From contig NZ_GL878519.1 in NCBI RefSeq assembly GCF_000194985.1, forward strand, positions 147,904 to 211,903: DNA of 64,000 bases, in the 5' to 3' direction. The first letter of the stretch is position 1, and each line of letters begins with the position of its first letter. The position numbers and the translations under genes were made by a program. Shown here piece by piece: positions 1,262 through 53,352 of the stretch. The notes beneath the pieces were generated by a model that saw only the letters and a program-made list of their open reading frames with translations, ran no database searches and was not told where the DNA came from. The stretch is from Dialister micraerophilus DSM 19965 (lineage in GTDB: Bacteria; Bacillota; Negativicutes; Veillonellales; Dialisteraceae).

Positions 1262-2376
1262 TTCAAATTCTCCGGAGATTCACCCAACTCAACAATTGTT
1301 CTTTTTAAAACACCGTCAGATTCATATGTAACATTAATTTTTTCACCGGGAGAATACTTACTTAAAATTTCTCTTATTTCTATAATTTTATTAACCGGTT
1401 TATCATTTATCTGCATTAAATAATCTCCGATTTCTATACCCGAAGCATTAATCGGTCCATCTCTGTAAACATTTAATACCAACACACCACCGGCGTCACG
1501 ACTCCAATCATATCCATATCTGTTTGCCAAGTCTTCATCAATCAAAGAAGCACCTAAAAAAGAACGTATAACACGACCGTTTTTAATCAATTGTGATGTA
1601 ATATCTTTAACTTGATTAATAGGTATTGCAAATCCAATTCCTTCAATTCCTTGCTTTATTATTTTTGAGCTGTTAATACCTATAACTTTTCCATCGACTG
1701 TTGCTAAAGCACCACCTGAGTTTCCAGGATTTATAGCAGCATCGGTTTGAATCAACTTAAAACGATGTTCCATATTATCCAATGTTCTGTTCAATGCACT
1801 TATTACACCCACAGTTATTGTACCTTTAAACTCCAATCCAAGAGGATTACCTATAGCTATAGCAGTTTCACCTACTTGCAGCTGTTCCGAATCACCAAAT
1901 ACAGCTGTAGGTAAATCATCTTGAGTGTCAATTTTAATAACTGCCAAATCGGTTATTGCATCTTTACCTATAACTTTACCGTTAATTGTTTTACCGTTGG
2001 ATAATAAAACATTTACATCATCACTTCCGGAAACAACATGATTATTAGTTACAATATATCCTTTTTCATCAAAAATAACACCTGAACCTGTACTCTGATT
2101 AATTTCAAATTTGCGATTAAATATATCACGTCCGTAAATTTTAGAAGTAATTCCTACAACTGAAGGCCCTACTTTTTTTACAGCTTCAACTATCGGTGTA
2201 TTTCTTACGGCAGGAAGCTCTATATTTTCATTTTTGTTAAAATCACCTTTAAATTTATTACTATAAGTATTACCGAAATAAAATCCGCTAATCCATGCAA
2301 TAATCAGTACAATTATAAACAATAATAAATATTTTAGTCTTGCTTTTAAAATTTTATTAAGTATTTGATTTTTCAT
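1255..2376 (-). CDS. htrA: HtrA/DegP-family membrane serine protease with PDZ domain
   Basis: A 373-residue protein with one N-terminal membrane anchor (about residues 15-35), a trypsin-like protease domain and a C-terminal PDZ domain (about 275-365). The catalytic triad is visible: His113 in TNNHVV, Asp143 in TDLAVIKI and Ser220 in NPGNSGGAL. The protease faces outside the cytoplasmic membrane and degrades or refolds damaged envelope proteins. Ribosome site GGAGG precedes the ATG. Placement directly before rlmH is common in Bacillota. Confidence 0.93.
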   Translation of the reverse strand: MKNQILNKILKARLKYLLLFIIVLIIAWISGFYFGNTYSNKFKGDFNKNENIELPAVRNTPIVEAVKKVGPSVVGITSKIYGRDIFNRKFEINQSTGSGVIFDEKGYIVTNNHVVSGSDDVNVLLSNGKTINGKVIGKDAITDLAVIKIDTQDDLPTAVFGDSEQLQVGETAIAIGNPLGLEFKGTITVGVISALNRTLDNMEHRFKLIQTDAAINPGNSGGALATVDGKVIGINSSKIIKQGIEGIGFAIPINQVKDITSQLIKNGRVIRSFLGASLIDEDLANRYGYDWSRDAGGVLVLNVYRDGPINASGIEIGDYLMQINDKPVNKIIEIREILSKYSPGEKINVTYESDGVLKRTIVELGESPENLKW

Positions 2377-2448
2377 AATCCCTCCAAATCAAAATATTAA
2401 TTATATATTTATTCTTTTAATATAGCATATTTATTATTATTTAAATAT

Positions 2449-2490
2449 ATGATAAAAGGAACATCTTAATTAAGATGTTCCTTTTATCAT
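2449..2490 (-). terminator. Perfect-palindrome terminator after rny
   Basis: A 42-base perfect palindrome centred at 2469/2470, each arm 21 bases, with the GGAACATCTTAA half-site followed by its mirror. It begins in the stop codon of rny. The arms end in TTTTAT on either strand, so it could stop transcription in both directions. Confidence 0.7.
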
Positions 2491-4064
2491 TATTTTGCAT
2501 ATCCTGTAGCACGAGTTTCTCTTATAGTAACAACTTTTATTTGTCCTGGATATTGTAATTCATTTTCTATTCTTTTTACTATATCGTGAGATAAAATAAT
2601 AGCCTGATCTTCTGTTATTTTTTCAGGTTTAACTATAACTCTGAGTTCACGTCCTGCTTGAATTGCATAACAATTATCAACTCCAGGATATGACTTGGCT
2701 ATATCTTCCAATTTGGTTAAACGTTTAATATAATTTTCCAACGTTTCTCTTCTTGCGCCAGGTCTTGCAGCTGAAATAGCATCCGCTGCCGCAACAAGTA
2801 CAGCTTCAACACAAGTAGCTTCAGTATCACCATGATGAGATGCTATAGCATTAATTACTTTCAGAGGTTCTTTGTATTTTTTTGCAAGAGCTACACCTAA
2901 TTCTACATGTGTACCTTCCTGTTCTCTGTCAATAGATTTTCCGATATCGTGGAATAACCCTCCACGTCTTGCCATTTCCGCATCTGCACCGACTTCATCC
3001 GCTAAAAGACTGGCAAAAAATGCCGTTTCAACCGAGTGTCGTAATACATTTTGTCCATAACTTGTACGGAATTTCAACCTACCGAGCATTTTTATCATTT
3101 CCGGATGAACACCACCGATGTTACATTCCAATACAGCTTCTTCACCGGCTTCTTTAATTTCTTTATCTATATCATTCTTTGTTTTTTCGACAATTTCTTC
3201 AATTCTTGCCGGATGAATACGTCCATCCTTAACCAAACTTTCCAATGCTTGTCTTGCAATTTCTCTACGTATAGGATCGAAACATGACAAAATAACCGCT
3301 TCAGGAGTATCATCAATTATTAAATCTACACCTGTTAATGTTTCAATGGCACGAATATTTCGCCCTTCCCTACCTATAATACGTCCTTTCATTTCTTCAT
3401 TCGGTAATGAAACAACCGATACGGTTGTTTCAGATACCGTATCTGCAGCACTTCTTTGAATAACTGTTGCTAAAATTTCCCTAGCCTTTGTTTCAGCCTT
3501 CTCTTTAATCTCATCTTCAGCATTCTTTATTCGAACTGCTTTTTCATGTTCCAATTCATCATCAACTCTGGATAAAATCATGTCTCTTGCTTCATCTTTA
3601 GATAATAATGAGATTTCTTCCAGCTTTTTCTCTTGTTGTAAATACAAATCATCGACTTTCTCTTTTTGAAGCTTTACCTGTATTTCACGTTTATTAAGAG
3701 AAGTTTCTCTTTGTTCCAAATTTCCACTTCTTAAATCTAAGTTGTTTTCTTTTTGGACCAATCGTTGTTCATAACATTTAAGTTCGTCACGACGTTCACG
3801 ACTTTCAGCTTCCATATCTTCACGAATTTTATGTATTTCTTCTCTTGTTTGAACTAAAGCTTCTTTACGCATTGTTTCCGCATCATGTACTGCAGAAGAC
3901 AACATTTTCTTTGCATCTTCAGATATTTGTTTAGCTTTTTCTTCAGCAGAGCCTATTTTGGCCTCTGCCAAATGTTTTCTCAATATATATCCTATAATTA
4001 CCCCTACAAAAGCAGCAATTACACAACCGATGATAATAATAAGTAATACTTCATCAATATTCAA
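2490..4064 (-). CDS. rny: Ribonuclease Y
   Basis: A membrane-anchored endoribonuclease that starts decay of many mRNAs. From the TTG start at 4064 it has 524 residues: an N-terminal transmembrane helix (about 5-30), a long charged coiled coil (about 40-200), a KH domain with [11 protein letters not shown] at about 227-237, and an HD domain with the metal-binding His-Asp at about 372-373 ([10 protein letters not shown]). An in-frame ATG lies at 4085 without a ribosome site. The AGAGGTG at about 4071-4077 is correctly spaced for the TTG, so I prefer that start. Confidence 0.93.
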
Positions 4065-18255: not shown

Positions 18256-19560
18256 TTATTTAATGTTTGAACTTTTGTAACCCTTTAATGCACTGATTAC
18301 TTTAATATTTTTCATATAAGGACGAAGTTTTTCCGGAACGGTAATTGAACCGTCTTCATTTTGATAATTTTCCATTATTGCAGCAACAGTTCTTCCTACA
18401 GCAAGTCCGGATCCGTTTAACGTATGTACAAACTCCGGCTTGGCTCCTTTACATCTGCGGAAACGAATATTGGCACGTCTGGCTTGGAAATCCAAACAAT
18501 TTGAGCAAGACGATATTTCTCTATATTTATTTTGTGCCGGCATCCAAACTTCAACGTCATAAGTTTTTGATGCTGAAAATCCTATATCCCCGGTACATAA
18601 ACATACTACTCTATATGGTAAATTTAATTCTTGTAAAACTTTTTCAGCTTCATTTGTTAAAGACTCCAATTCATCTTTGCTGTCTTCAGGTTTACAATAT
18701 TTAACCATTTCAACTTTTTGGAATTGATGTTGACGAATTAATCCACGTGTATCTTTTCCGGCAGATCCTGCTTCTTTTCTAAAACACGGTGTAAGTGCAG
18801 TAAAATGCACAGGAAGTATACTTGCATCTAAAATTTCACCTGCAAAATAGTTAGTTAAAGGCACTTCTGCTGTAGGTGTCATATACATTGTTTCCCCTTC
18901 AACTTTATACATATCTTCCGCAAATTTCGGAAGTTGTCCTGTACCTTGCATTGAAGATTCATTAATAATATATGGAGGAATAACTTCTGTAAATGTACCT
19001 TCTACAGTATGAAGATCTAACATGAAATTATAAACTGCTCGTTCTAATTTAGCTATTGCATCTATATAAAAAGTAAATCTTGCTCCTGAAACTTTCCCTG
19101 CACGTTCAAAATCCAGCATCTTAAGTGATTCACCCAATTCATAGTGTGCTTTTATAGGAAAATCAAATTTGCGCGGAACACCCCAACGTCTTATTTCAGG
19201 ATTTTCACTATCATCTTTACCTACCGGTACCGATTCATCTACAATATTAGGAATATGAAGTAATAGGTTATGTAATTCTTTTTCGATTTTATTTAAATCT
19301 ATATCTATTTCAGAAATTTGATTACCTACTTTACGCATTTCTGCAATAGCTGCAGATGCATCTTCACCTTTCTTCTTAGCTATTGCAATATTTTTACTTT
19401 CTATATTTCTTCTACTTTTTAATTTTTCGGTTTCTTGCAATAATTCACGTCTCTTTCGGTCAAGTTCCAAAACTTTATTTAAATCAAAATTATTATTTCG
19501 ATTTATCAAATTTTCCTTTACAAGGTCAAAATTTTCTCTTATAAATTTCAAATCAAGCAT
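18256..19560 (-). CDS. serS: Seryl-tRNA synthetase
   Basis: A 434-residue class II synthetase. The N-terminal long antiparallel coiled coil that grips the tRNA-Ser variable arm spans about residues 25-100. Motif 2 ([23 protein letters not shown]) and motif 3 ([18 protein letters not shown]) are intact. The ATG at 19560 follows AAAGGAG. Expression is controlled by the T-box leader directly upstream, so it should rise when uncharged tRNA-Ser accumulates. Confidence 0.97.
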
Positions 19561-19579
19561 TTTAATCTCCTTTTGCAAA

Positions 19580-19792
19580 CAAAAAAACCTCGCCTCATTG
19601 GGACGAAGTTATCGCGGTGCCACCCATATTCAGAAATTTAATAAATTTCCCTCATTGATTTTATAACGAAATCACTCGTTCGATTCTTCACCGACTGCTC
19701 CTGAGCGGATCTCTTTTTTACGGATACAAATTCTCACCAAACATTTGCTCTCTTGAAACTTTCAAAAAGATATTCTCATTCATCGCTTTCAA
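19580..19792 (-). promoter_or_regulatory. T-box leader of serS, specifier UCC (Ser)
   Basis: The minus strand carries the T-box core GGGTGGCACCGCG (19625-19613) followed by a terminator hairpin (CTTCGTC...GGCGAGG) and a run of T at 19587-19581. Stem I shows the AAGAGAGC...TTTGGTGAGAA apical motif and a k-turn-like base. By pairing TGAG with CTCA beneath the specifier loop, the codon position is TCC (19709-19707) followed by a purine, which is a serine codon. Uncharged tRNA-Ser should stabilise the antiterminator. No computed fold was run. Confidence 0.92.
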
Positions 19793-49484: not shown

Positions 49485-49523
49485 GAAAATCGATTGTATG
49501 TATTGCCATACAATCGATTTTTT
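49485..49523. terminator. Strong hairpin terminator beside queF
   Basis: A 15- to 16-base-pair stem (AAAATCGATTGTATG with its complement) and a 6-base loop. The plus-strand side has six T; the minus-strand side, which would serve queF, has four. Confidence 0.75.
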
Positions 49524-50016
49524 ATCTATTATTTACAATTTCAGGGTACATATCATGATTAATCAATCTGTTTTCCGCTACACCTTCCCACTTTGTACCT
49601 TTTTTTCCATAATTACAATACGGATCTATGGATAATCCGCCGCGTGGTAAAAATTTTCCCCATACTTCAATATATCTTGGTTTCAAAAGTTTTATCAAAT
49701 CTTCCATTATCATGTTTACGCAATCTTCGTGAAAAGCTCCATGATTTCGATAACTGAAAAGATAAAGTTTCAATGATTTACTTTCTACTATAAATTTATC
49801 CGGTACATATGAAATATAGATTGTAGCAAAATCAGGTTGACCTGTTTTCGGACAAAGACTTGTAAATTCCGGACAATTGAATTTAACAAAATAATCTCTA
49901 TCTTCATGAGAATTCGGTACCGCTTCCAAAACTTCCGGTGTTGTTTCAAATACATATTTTGTATTCTTATTTCCCAAATGTGATAAGTCTTCAATTTTAG
50001 TTTTTCTATTATCCAT
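49522..50016 (-). CDS. queF: NADPH-dependent 7-cyano-7-deazaguanine reductase QueF
   Basis: A 164-residue unimodular QueF. The nucleophile Cys lies in [14 protein letters not shown] and the family motif is [24 protein letters not shown]. It reduces preQ0 to preQ1 in queuosine synthesis. No other queuosine gene and no preQ1 riboswitch are visible. It lies about 60 bases after the ECF transporter genes and may be read with them. Confidence 0.95.
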
Positions 50017-50075: not shown

Positions 50076-50759
50076 TTAAATTGTCAATAAACACTGTCCA
50101 TAAACAACTCCACCGGTTACAAGCATAATTATAAACAAAAATATACAATCTTCTTTCTTGAGCGATACATGTGTGGCTTTTACTTTTTTAGTTGTACCGA
50201 AACTTCTTAATTCCAGTGCCAATGCCATTGTTTCACTCTTGTCCAACGCTCTCAAAACAAGCGGTTTTACTACAGACATATATCTCTTCAATCTTTTGAA
50301 TATATTGCCTTCTATAGCAAGTCCTCTGCAAGCTTGAGCTTCAGTTACTGCAGTATTTTCTTCCAAAAAGTCAGGAATAAATCTAAGCCCTGCAGTAAAC
50401 ATAAATGCGTATTCTGTCGGAATTTTAAGTTGAGATACCATTGTGGCTGTAAGATCTTGAAGGCGTACTGTTGTTAAAAGGTATATGAATATCAAAGTCA
50501 TTGCCATCATACGTATTGCAGCTTCCAATCCCTGAGCGTTTGTTCCTCCTCCAAGTATTTCTACAATACCTAAAAATGCAGCAAACAAACAAAGCATGAA
50601 AATACTTTTTATATTTGAAAATAACTCATTTGATACCAATAAAATTAATAACTCAACTCCGCAAAGTGTCAATAGTGCGTGCGGTGTTTTTAAAAATATT
50701 GCAAGTATCGCAACTATTAGCGTCAATATTATTTTAGTTAAAGGAACAAAATGTCTCAT
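50076..50759 (-). CDS. ECF transporter transmembrane component EcfT
   Basis: A 227-residue membrane protein with about five helices, LQDLTATMVSQLKIPTEYAFMFTAGLRFIP and the two coupling-helix Ala-Arg-Gly-like motifs (AQACRGL and ALELRSFG). EcfT links ATPases to the substrate-binding S component. It directly follows the ATPase gene. Confidence 0.9.
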   Translation of the reverse strand: MRHFVPLTKIILTLIVAILAIFLKTPHALLTLCGVELLILLVSNELFSNIKSIFMLCLFAAFLGIVEILGGGTNAQGLEAAIRMMAMTLIFIYLLTTVRLQDLTATMVSQLKIPTEYAFMFTAGLRFIPDFLEENTAVTEAQACRGLAIEGNIFKRLKRYMSVVKPLVLRALDKSETMALALELRSFGTTKKVKATHVSLKKEDCIFLFIIMLVTGGVVYGQCLLTI

Positions 50760-51572
50760 TTATATTACCCCTTTTACTCGTTCAAACTCTTTCATAAAAA
50801 CATTCATATTTTTGCAATACGGTTGTCCTTTCAGTTCTCTTCCAAGTAATACTGAATCAGGATATGCCAATTTCAACTCTTTTAAATGATACTTCCCGCT
50901 GAAAAGTTCATCAGGGTTTCCATCGAATGCAATTTTATTATTTAAAATAGCAATTACACGATCACTATATTGTGCCACTATATCCATATCATGCGTTACA
51001 AGTATTACACCTATTCCCTTGCTTACCAAATCTTTCATCAATTTTACCAAACGCAATTTCTCTACATTATCCTGACCGCTTGTAGGTTCATCCAATATAA
51101 TATACTTTGTTTTCATCGCCAATGCAGATGCTATAGCTACCCTTTGCTGATTTCCACGATTCAAAGTTCGAGGATATTTGTTTCTTAAATCACTTATTTT
51201 GCAAATTTCTAAGGCTTCTTCAAATATTTCTTTCAACTTTTGTCCTTTTATACCTTTCTGAATCGGGCCGAAAGCTACTTCTTCTTCAACTGTAGGCATA
51301 AACATTTGTCTGTCCGGTTGCTGAAATACATATCCTATAAAACTGCTTCTTCCGGATGCTTTCATTTTAGTTATATCTTCATCATCATGAATTATTTTAC
51401 CTTCAACCGGCATTTCCAATCCGGTTAAAAGTCTTGTTATAGTGGTTTTTCCACTTCCGTTTCTTCCTACTATGCAAACAAATTCGCCTTCTTTAAAGGA
51501 AATATTTATTCCTTCGAGTATCATAGGTGATTTTTTATTATATCTAAAAAATATTTTTGACATTTCCAACAT
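50760..51572 (-). CDS. ECF transporter ATP-binding protein
   Basis: A 270-residue ABC ATPase. Walker A is GRNGSGKTT, signature LNRGNQQRVAIA, Walker B IILDEPTSGQDN with intact catalytic Glu, and the H-loop is VTHDMD. The signature LNRGNQ differs from the usual LSGGQ. It likely pairs with the degenerate ATPase domain of the gene before it. Confidence 0.93.
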   Translation of the reverse strand: MLEMSKIFFRYNKKSPMILEGINISFKEGEFVCIVGRNGSGKTTITRLLTGLEMPVEGKIIHDDEDITKMKASGRSSFIGYVFQQPDRQMFMPTVEEEVAFGPIQKGIKGQKLKEIFEEALEICKISDLRNKYPRTLNRGNQQRVAIASALAMKTKYIILDEPTSGQDNVEKLRLVKLMKDLVSKGIGVILVTHDMDIVAQYSDRVIAILNNKIAFDGNPDELFSGKYHLKELKLAYPDSVLLGRELKGQPYCKNMNVFMKEFERVKGVI

Positions 51573-51575
51573 ATT

Positions 51576-53048
51576 TTATCTCCCTTCACCCGCCAACTCA
51601 TTTACACAGAACACCGCATTTTCTATTTTTGTAAAAGGTTTATTTATATTGAATCCTTTTTGCTCCAATTCCAATTGAACCAAGCTCAGCGGTGGAATGG
51701 CTTCTTCATATATACCGTTATTATACATATACTCTATAACTTCTTTTGGAGTTCCGTCTTTTGCAATTTCACCTTTTTCCATCAATACAAATCTTGATGC
51801 ATAGTGCATAACCGATGACAAATCATGTTCGGCTATTATCACTGTAATATTTCTTGTACGGTTAAGTCTTCCTACCATTTCATAAAATACACTTACACCT
51901 TCAGGATCCATTGCAGATGCCGGAGAATCCATAATAAGTACTTCCGGATTTGTAACAAGTACGGTAGCCAATATCAATCTTTGTTTCTGTCCGCCGGAAA
52001 GTGTATTTACAGCGGATTTTTCCATTCCTGATAGTCCGACTTCTTTCAATGTTTCTTTTATTCTGTTTCTGATTTCTTCATAATCATATCCTCTGTTTTC
52101 AAGAGTAAATGCCATTTCTTCTTCTACTGTCATTGTCACGAATTGCGACTGATAATCTTCCAATATTACACCTATATTTTCAGAAAGTTCGGATACACTT
52201 GACTGAGTAATCGCTTTTCCAAGAGTAAAGCACATTCCTTTTAAAGTACCTCCGAAATAATTTGGAGCTGCACCTATCATTGTCATAAGTAATGTACTTT
52301 TACCCGATCCGCTTTCACCTGTAATTACTATAAATTCACCTTTTTGTATTGAAAGATTTATATCTTTTATCGCGTAATGTTCATCGGAAAGATATGAATA
52401 ATATGTATGTTCCAAACTTATAATTCCTTCATTACTCTGTTTAAAAACAAGTCCTTCATGATTTTTCTCAACAATTTCTTTTGATGATTTGGAAATTCTC
52501 ATATCAAAGAAATTTTTTGCAGGTATATATATAAATGGAGTAATGATTGCATTGGCAACACCTACTGAAACTACCATCGGAAGCATCGCATACAATAATA
52601 CATTTACAGGGATTCCCATAACTGAAACTAAAATCGATACAAAGACGCCTCCACTAACTACTGTTGCAAAAAATCCTGCCAATGCCGGTTTCAAATCAAA
52701 TTTCTTTATTTTAAGTTCAGGTAATACATGAACTATAAATGCCGCAACATATCCGCCTGCAAGTTCAGCCGGAAAATCTCCATAAGGAAATGCAGACTTA
52801 CTTGTAAATACTTCCAATAATGCCGCTACCAAGCAAATTCCTGCACATTTTCTATAAGAAGGCTTCAATAATAAAATTGCAGCTACATACGTTGCAATCA
52901 TCCAGCCCGGCGTAATCCCCGCTATTGACGGTGACACTAAGTGAAGTATCGTTCCTATAGCAAGTAACAACGTCGATACTGTCAACCAACGATACTTACC
53001 TCCTCTTGCTTTTATAAAAATCGGTAAATTGTCTTTGGTTATATTCAT
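51576..53048 (-). CDS. Fused S-component-like membrane domain and ABC ATPase, Trp T-box regulated
   Basis: A 490-residue fusion. Residues about 20-185 hold five to six membrane helices resembling a TrpP-like ECF S component (ITPGWMIATYVAAIL, FPYGDFPAELAGGYVAAF). Residues about 205-430 form an ABC ATPase with Walker A GESGSGKS (244-251) and signature LSGGQKQR (350-357). The Walker B reads LIMDSPASAMDP, so the catalytic Glu is Ser375; the H-loop His remains (AEHD). The UGG T-box just upstream strongly suggests tryptophan as substrate. It should work with the ATPase and EcfT encoded next. Confidence 0.88.
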   Translation of the reverse strand: MNITKDNLPIFIKARGGKYRWLTVSTLLLAIGTILHLVSPSIAGITPGWMIATYVAAILLLKPSYRKCAGICLVAALLEVFTSKSAFPYGDFPAELAGGYVAAFIVHVLPELKIKKFDLKPALAGFFATVVSGGVFVSILVSVMGIPVNVLLYAMLPMVVSVGVANAIITPFIYIPAKNFFDMRISKSSKEIVEKNHEGLVFKQSNEGIISLEHTYYSYLSDEHYAIKDINLSIQKGEFIVITGESGSGKSTLLMTMIGAAPNYFGGTLKGMCFTLGKAITQSSVSELSENIGVILEDYQSQFVTMTVEEEMAFTLENRGYDYEEIRNRIKETLKEVGLSGMEKSAVNTLSGGQKQRLILATVLVTNPEVLIMDSPASAMDPEGVSVFYEMVGRLNRTRNITVIIAEHDLSSVMHYASRFVLMEKGEIAKDGTPKEVIEYMYNNGIYEEAIPPLSLVQLELEQKGFNINKPFTKIENAVFCVNELAGEGR

Positions 53049-53076
53049 ATAAATCCCTCCTATTCAAAATTCGCAT

Positions 53077-53352
53077 AAAAAAACCTTTCGTGCCTTGCAC
53101 ATTTGCAAGGGACGAAAGGATAAATTCCGCGGTACCACCCTAATTGGACTAAGCCCACCTCAACGCACGGCATTTTGCGATGCGAGCTTCATTATATCGG
53201 TTGAAGTTCCGTCAGTGCCTACTCTTAACGATTCGGACTGCACCTCACAGGCCCATTCATGTATGAACATCATGTCGTATTCTCACCGGCGCCGACTCTC
53301 TTTATTGATTAATTCATTCACTACTCTCCCTGATCACAGGTAGTATTTAATT
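53077..53352 (-). promoter_or_regulatory. T-box leader, specifier UGG (Trp), before the ECF transporter
   Basis: The minus strand carries GGGTGGTACCGCGG (53140-53127), a perfect terminator stem (CCTTTCGT and CCTTGCA arms, 53119-53084) and seven T (53083-53077). Stem I has AAAGAGAGTCGG...CCGGTGAGAA. Pairing CAGG with CCTG below the specifier loop, plus the loop E pattern AGTA/GAA, places the codon directly after GAA as TGG (53255-53253) followed by G. Rising uncharged tRNA-Trp should switch on the transporter. Confidence 0.9.

Follow-up and report, generated by a model that had tools for sequence, protein, structure and literature searches.

For group I ECF importers it has been suggested that the S-component may not separate far from its module; in group II, one module is shared by competing free S-components, which ATP binding expels (PMC10368641). 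In the group II system of L. delbrueckii, growth that depends on uptake is severely impaired when just one ATPase, whichever of the two, carries a Glu-to-Gln exchange, and two questions are open for ECF importers: how far the S-component leaves the motor, and in which order ATP is bound and hydrolysed at the two sites (PMC10368641). A riboswitch controls the group I genes ykoEDC, and in YkoD the fusion is between the two ATPases (PMC5037267). The RbsA and NupO importers and asymmetric exporters pair a canonical composite ATP site with a degenerate one (PMC11466899).

The cassette described here lies in a window of 64,000 nucleotides from Dialister micraerophilus, a small anaerobic bacterium of the Veillonellales with a genome of 1.28 Mb (99.6% complete). 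It is, in our judgement, highly likely to encode an ECF importer that is dedicated and group I-like, has L-tryptophan as its most likely substrate, stands under the control of a tryptophan T-box, keeps its S-component tethered and hydrolyses ATP at one site; the substrate, the toppling on a tether and the single-site hydrolysis are what we infer. An S-component tied to its ATPase, together with a naturally degenerate ATP site, would make both questions testable on natural proteins. The fused family occurs in common human-associated genera (Dialister, Veillonella, Megasphaera and Allisonella).

Cassette layout and the fused S-component

The three genes of the cassette are all on the reverse strand. 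The first (51576..53048, −) encodes a protein of 490 residues in which a TrpP-like S-component is joined to an ECF ATPase, A1: Pfam TrpP (PF17099) matches residues 20–175 with 39.8 bits against a cut-off of 27.2, and ABC_tran matches residues 228–377. The partner ECF ATPase A2 (50760..51572, −) follows after 3 nt and scores 220.8 bits with TIGR04520, below the equivalog cut-off of 315. EcfT, the transmembrane component (50076..50759, −; PF02361 CbiQ, 69.7 bits), follows A2 with a gap of 0 nt and carries the coupling motifs CRG at 144 and LRS at 184, which replace ARG and ARS. These matches confirm the order given in the original prediction, a fused first gene followed by a second ATPase and EcfT, and its coordinates were correct. 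S, A, A and T are encoded together, which is a trait of group I ECF importers, and the arrangement is kept in relatives. Downstream, a queF (preQ1 synthase) gene lies at 49522–50016 (−) of the window, 59 nt past EcfT, and several loci of the Dialister family likewise have a queF relative near the cassette.

The AlphaFold2 model of the full fused protein (pLDDT 85) divides into three parts. Residues 1–185 (52494..53048, −) form the S-component domain, for which six transmembrane helices are predicted with a mean pLDDT of 87.4 when the domain is folded alone. A linker of approximately residues 186–208 (52425..52493, −) has no regular structure between the helix at 148–185 and the strand at 210–218, with pLDDT below 50 at 186–189 in the full model. 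The C-terminal ATPase domain A1 (residues 209–490; 51579..52424, −) is ECF-type, its predicted fold aligning to EcfA/CbiO structures over residues 207–488 with a Z score of 30.

The fold search with the whole fused model listed only ATPases; a second search used the S domain folded by itself. The top 18 aligned PDB entries were all ECF S-components or S chains (Z 15.6 to 9.6), among them PanT (Z 15.6), ThiT, FolT, RibU, BioY and CbiM of CbiMQO, and the next match was to an unrelated fold at Z 8.3. Foldseek also ranked S-components first, with a weak best E value of 0.036. The sequence of the domain matched no solved structure, either as a single sequence or as a profile, and no S-component family of NCBIfam. 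Helix 1 reads LLLAIGTILHL, so the exact AxxxA motif for T binding is absent; this motif is not strict (PMC5037267).

The membrane domain is therefore related to S-components by its predicted fold and to TrpP by the HMM search, as had been proposed, but it is not a typical TrpP. The match is a remote one, over the curated cut-off and far below typical members: TrpP scores range from about 30 to 61 bits in Negativicutes versus mostly 120–212 bits for typical members in the phylum, which are free proteins of about 170–210 residues, and the Negativicutes TrpPs form a separate branch from these. TrpP was reportedly listed by Rodionov et al. (2009) as a predicted tryptophan S-component.

A TrpP match was present in 60 of 61 Veillonellales genomes, and every match listed above the cut-off lay in a frame of 490–566 residues. 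The sampled fused proteins of Veillonellales form one clade with support of 100/99. The original prediction had set the ATPase-bound S-component against the usual free one; the fusion itself stands, and it is a property of the order (60/61) and not peculiar to this genome. At many other Negativicutes loci TrpP is a free protein whose gene precedes those of two ATPases and EcfT, and a T-box often lies upstream. A second type of fusion, with a shorter junction, occurs in other families of the class Negativicutes: the distance from the Y-x-P-A motif to Walker A is 32–33 residues, compared with 66–68 in the Veillonellales type. The 34 residues by which the junctions differ are a hint of two fusion events rather than one; support for all fused proteins as a single group is 27/2. 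We found no report of an S–ATPase fusion in the limited collection of literature searched.

Variations on the arrangement were also seen. The gene order of the cassette differs in Megasphaera, and in an operon of Megasphaera paucivorans (L111, 5584–10056) two different S-A1 fusions flank a single A2 and a single T. The S-component profile PF12822 matches in frames of 417–447 residues (G387, G433 and G471; family f43), which may be further S-component fusions.

A dedicated role in tryptophan uptake fits what the rest of the genome encodes. Neither IGPS nor TrpB was found in the D. micraerophilus genome, while both queries matched in 14 of 14 control genomes. The TrpP match is the only one in the genome, and the one further EcfT belongs to a separate, general EcfA-A-T module beside a truA-like gene. 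The cassette would assign a likely tryptophan route to a bacterium without tryptophan synthase. A cassette under tryptophan control could instead import a related compound, such as indole, a tryptophan peptide or another aromatic, and the position of the S domain on a divergent, low-scoring TrpP branch means that its substrate is not fixed by homology. We nevertheless think this improbable: without IGPS and TrpB the usual enzyme cannot turn indole into tryptophan, and the T-box of the cassette is predicted to answer to the charging of tRNA-Trp, a demand that tryptophan itself would satisfy most directly.

Unequal ATP sites

In an ABC dimer the Walker motifs at each ATP site come from one subunit and the signature from its partner. 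With the general EcfA of D. micraerophilus as the alignment reference, motifs were compared across 68 distinct A2 and 63 distinct fused A1 sequences; one of the A1 sequences (from L165) is probably a misassigned ABC protein. The D. micraerophilus A2 has the degenerate signature LNRGN (51150..51164, −) where the canonical motif is LSGGQ. Glycine was absent from the third signature position in all 68 A2 sequences, which have Arg (60), Lys (3), Leu (2), Phe (2) or Tyr (1) there, and all 68 keep the Walker-A Lys, the Q-loop Gln, the Walker-B Asp-Glu and the H-loop His. The fused A1 sequences display another pattern: LSGG is kept in all 63 and the Q-loop Gln in none.

In D. micraerophilus A1 itself, LSGGQKQR is intact and the Q-loop Gln is replaced by Glu. 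In addition, Ser375 (51924..51926, −) replaces the catalytic Glu of Walker B (MDSP). The residue at this position is Glu in 60 of the 63 A1 sequences and Gln in two Megasphaera copies, one of them the first S-A1 copy of the M. paucivorans operon, and Ser occurs in D. micraerophilus only. Both ATPases of the general ECF module in the same genome have LSGGQ or LSGGQ-like signatures and DE Walker B motifs. The pattern of two canonical sites, for which each ATPase should have LSGGQ, the Q-loop Gln, the Walker-B Glu and the H-loop His, was not found in the cassette.

Because each site is built from both subunits, all of these losses fall on one site and leave the other fully canonical. As judged from the aligned motifs, the canonical site is composed of the Walker, Q-loop and H-loop residues of A2 with the LSGGQ of A1. 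The predicted degenerate site pairs the Walker residues of A1 with the A2 signature and, in D. micraerophilus, also has no catalytic Glu. ATP is probably hydrolysed at one site only per cycle, and the degenerate site would then function without hydrolysis. The asymmetry of the ATPases is an addition to the original prediction, which had not remarked on it. No degenerate ATP site in an ECF importer was reported in the literature searched, a limited collection.

Some of these features could also be read as decay of the fused subunit in the D. micraerophilus lineage, in which case the motif asymmetry would belong to a failing transporter and not to a working design. Ser375 is unique among the sequences compared, the S domain has Gly in place of the nearly invariant Asn48, and the branch of the D. 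micraerophilus protein (length 0.84) is the longest among the fused proteins. Against this, the cassette has intact frames throughout and an intact T-box and terminator, and the S domain retains 59–71% identity to family relatives versus 49–54% for the neighbouring FolD and 42–49% for MscS, in a species that is divergent throughout. The core of the asymmetry, in the A2 signature and the A1 Q-loop, is moreover family-wide and older than the D. micraerophilus lineage. Decay of this cassette is not the favoured reading, and we give it a low probability compared with that of a working importer with unequal sites.

T-box leader and its specifier

The leader of the cassette (53105..53346, −) matches the full-length T-box model RF00230 with 96.6 bits, above the gathering score of 93, and is followed by an intrinsic terminator (53077..53119, −) made up of a hairpin at 53084–53119 and a U-run at 53077–53083. 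The full T-box claimed originally is thereby borne out. The hairpin has a folding energy of −22.3 kcal/mol (z −5.2), and no shuffled sequence was equally stable. The CGUCCC strand of the antiterminator shares sequence with the 5′ arm of this hairpin, as would be expected of terminator/antiterminator alternatives. The plain sequence of the antiterminator folds with no stability above that of shuffles (z +1.0), an expected result because the structure needs the tRNA, and one that we did not take as evidence.

The specifier UGG (Trp; 53253..53255, −) sits in the 3′ part of the specifier loop, where the sequence reads GAAUGGG. In an RNAalifold consensus of the aligned leaders, GAAUGG falls in the 3′ strand of an internal loop; the stems that flank this loop covary, 17 of 18 pairs showing two-sided changes. 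GAA-UGG-purine was present in all 26 RF00230 leaders near related cassettes, and the specifier motif was found in 27/27 cassette T-boxes checked versus 0/7 other T-boxes of the D. micraerophilus genome. The UGG specifier of the original prediction held after alignment and consensus folding, and no other codon emerged. Conservation of the TrpP match in 60/61 genomes and of GAA-UGG-purine in 26/26 leaders excludes chance.

The antiterminator bulge UGGU (53134..53137, −), placed by the RF00230 alignment, is predicted to pair with the 3′ end of the tRNA. The tRNA-Trp of D. micraerophilus has the anticodon CCA and G73; its T-loop reads TTTGAG, which is why a tRNA pattern search had passed over it. 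The bulge is UGGC in most relatives outside the genus, where it can pair with G73, and UGGU in D. micraerophilus and its relatives within the genus, so that a wobble pair with G73 would be needed.

A one-base slip in the loop GAAUGGG would turn the specifier into AUG (Met) or GGG (Gly) and make the cassette answer to another amino acid, but we consider it very improbable and rejected these frames: GAAUGG is constant in the 22 aligned leaders of homologous cassettes while the next base varies between G and A, the same register, read as an internal control in D. micraerophilus, yields UCC before the seryl-tRNA synthetase gene and UGC before the cysteinyl-tRNA synthetase gene, and G73, which tRNA-Trp has, suits the UGGC bulge found in most relatives, Met tRNAs usually having A73 and Gly tRNAs U73.

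Other T-boxes were encountered alongside that of the cassette. The window contains a second one at 19596–19792 (−; 126.9 bits) with a UCC (Ser) specifier, before the seryl-tRNA synthetase gene at 18256–19578 (−). A further locus (L009, 1285–1711) combines a raiA RNA (185.5 bits) with a T-box of UGC (Cys) specifier 10 nt downstream, forming tandem structured RNAs before a cysteinyl-tRNA synthetase gene at 1753–3198. Within Veillonella, no recognizable T-box was found in the searched upstream stretch of several cassettes, V. parvula included (L118, L149–L151, L153, L159 and L162), and a T-box is present at the cassettes of V. ratti and V. seminalis; the switch has apparently been lost within the genus.

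Proposed transport cycle and comparison with known importers

Under the reading that we prefer, a dedicated tryptophan importer, uncharged tRNA-Trp that has built up would bind the leader at two places, the UGG specifier through its CCA anticodon and the UGGU bulge through its 3′ end. Such pairing would stabilize the antiterminator and allow transcription of the genes for S-A1, A2 and T. The six-helix S domain would capture tryptophan outside, topple on EcfT and release tryptophan inside. As it is joined to A1 by a linker of about 23 residues, it could neither leave the motor nor be swapped for another S-component, and the tether favours a module that is used solely by its own S-component. Any ATP-driven undocking of the S domain would be partial and on a leash. 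The cycle would be powered mainly by the site that holds the catalytic residues of A2.

A further step, which we put forward tentatively and hold to be somewhat less than an even prospect, is that the S-component and one ATPase act as a single unit upon a half-module of A2 and T, hydrolysing ATP at one site and never releasing the S-component. The two S-A1 proteins around one A2 and T in M. paucivorans imply that the exchangeable part may be the whole S-A1 and not S alone.

The closest described systems each share part of this design. With the TrpP family (PF17099; B. subtilis TrpP/YhaG), whose name assigns tryptophan uptake, the membrane domain shares a match over the Pfam cut-off; typical members are free and high-scoring, whereas the D. 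micraerophilus domain belongs to a low-scoring separate branch and is fused to an ATPase. For group I importers such as BioMNY, CbiMNQO and YkoEDC, one operon likewise encodes a dedicated S-component, T and two ATPase domains. Where YkoD joins ATPase to ATPase, the fusion here is of S-component to ATPase, and the two predicted ATP sites are unequal.

The S fold, the ECF-type ATPase fold and the T component are shared with the group II system of L. delbrueckii, EcfAA′T with FolT2, PanT and CbrT. In contrast to that system, the S-component in D. micraerophilus is tethered and one catalytic Glu is naturally absent. Since the Glu-to-Gln exchange is harmful in either L. delbrueckii ATPase, the asymmetry in D. 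micraerophilus departs from the ECF systems studied. A degenerate site is common to the cassette and to RbsA, NupO and the asymmetric exporters, but those are not ECF importers.
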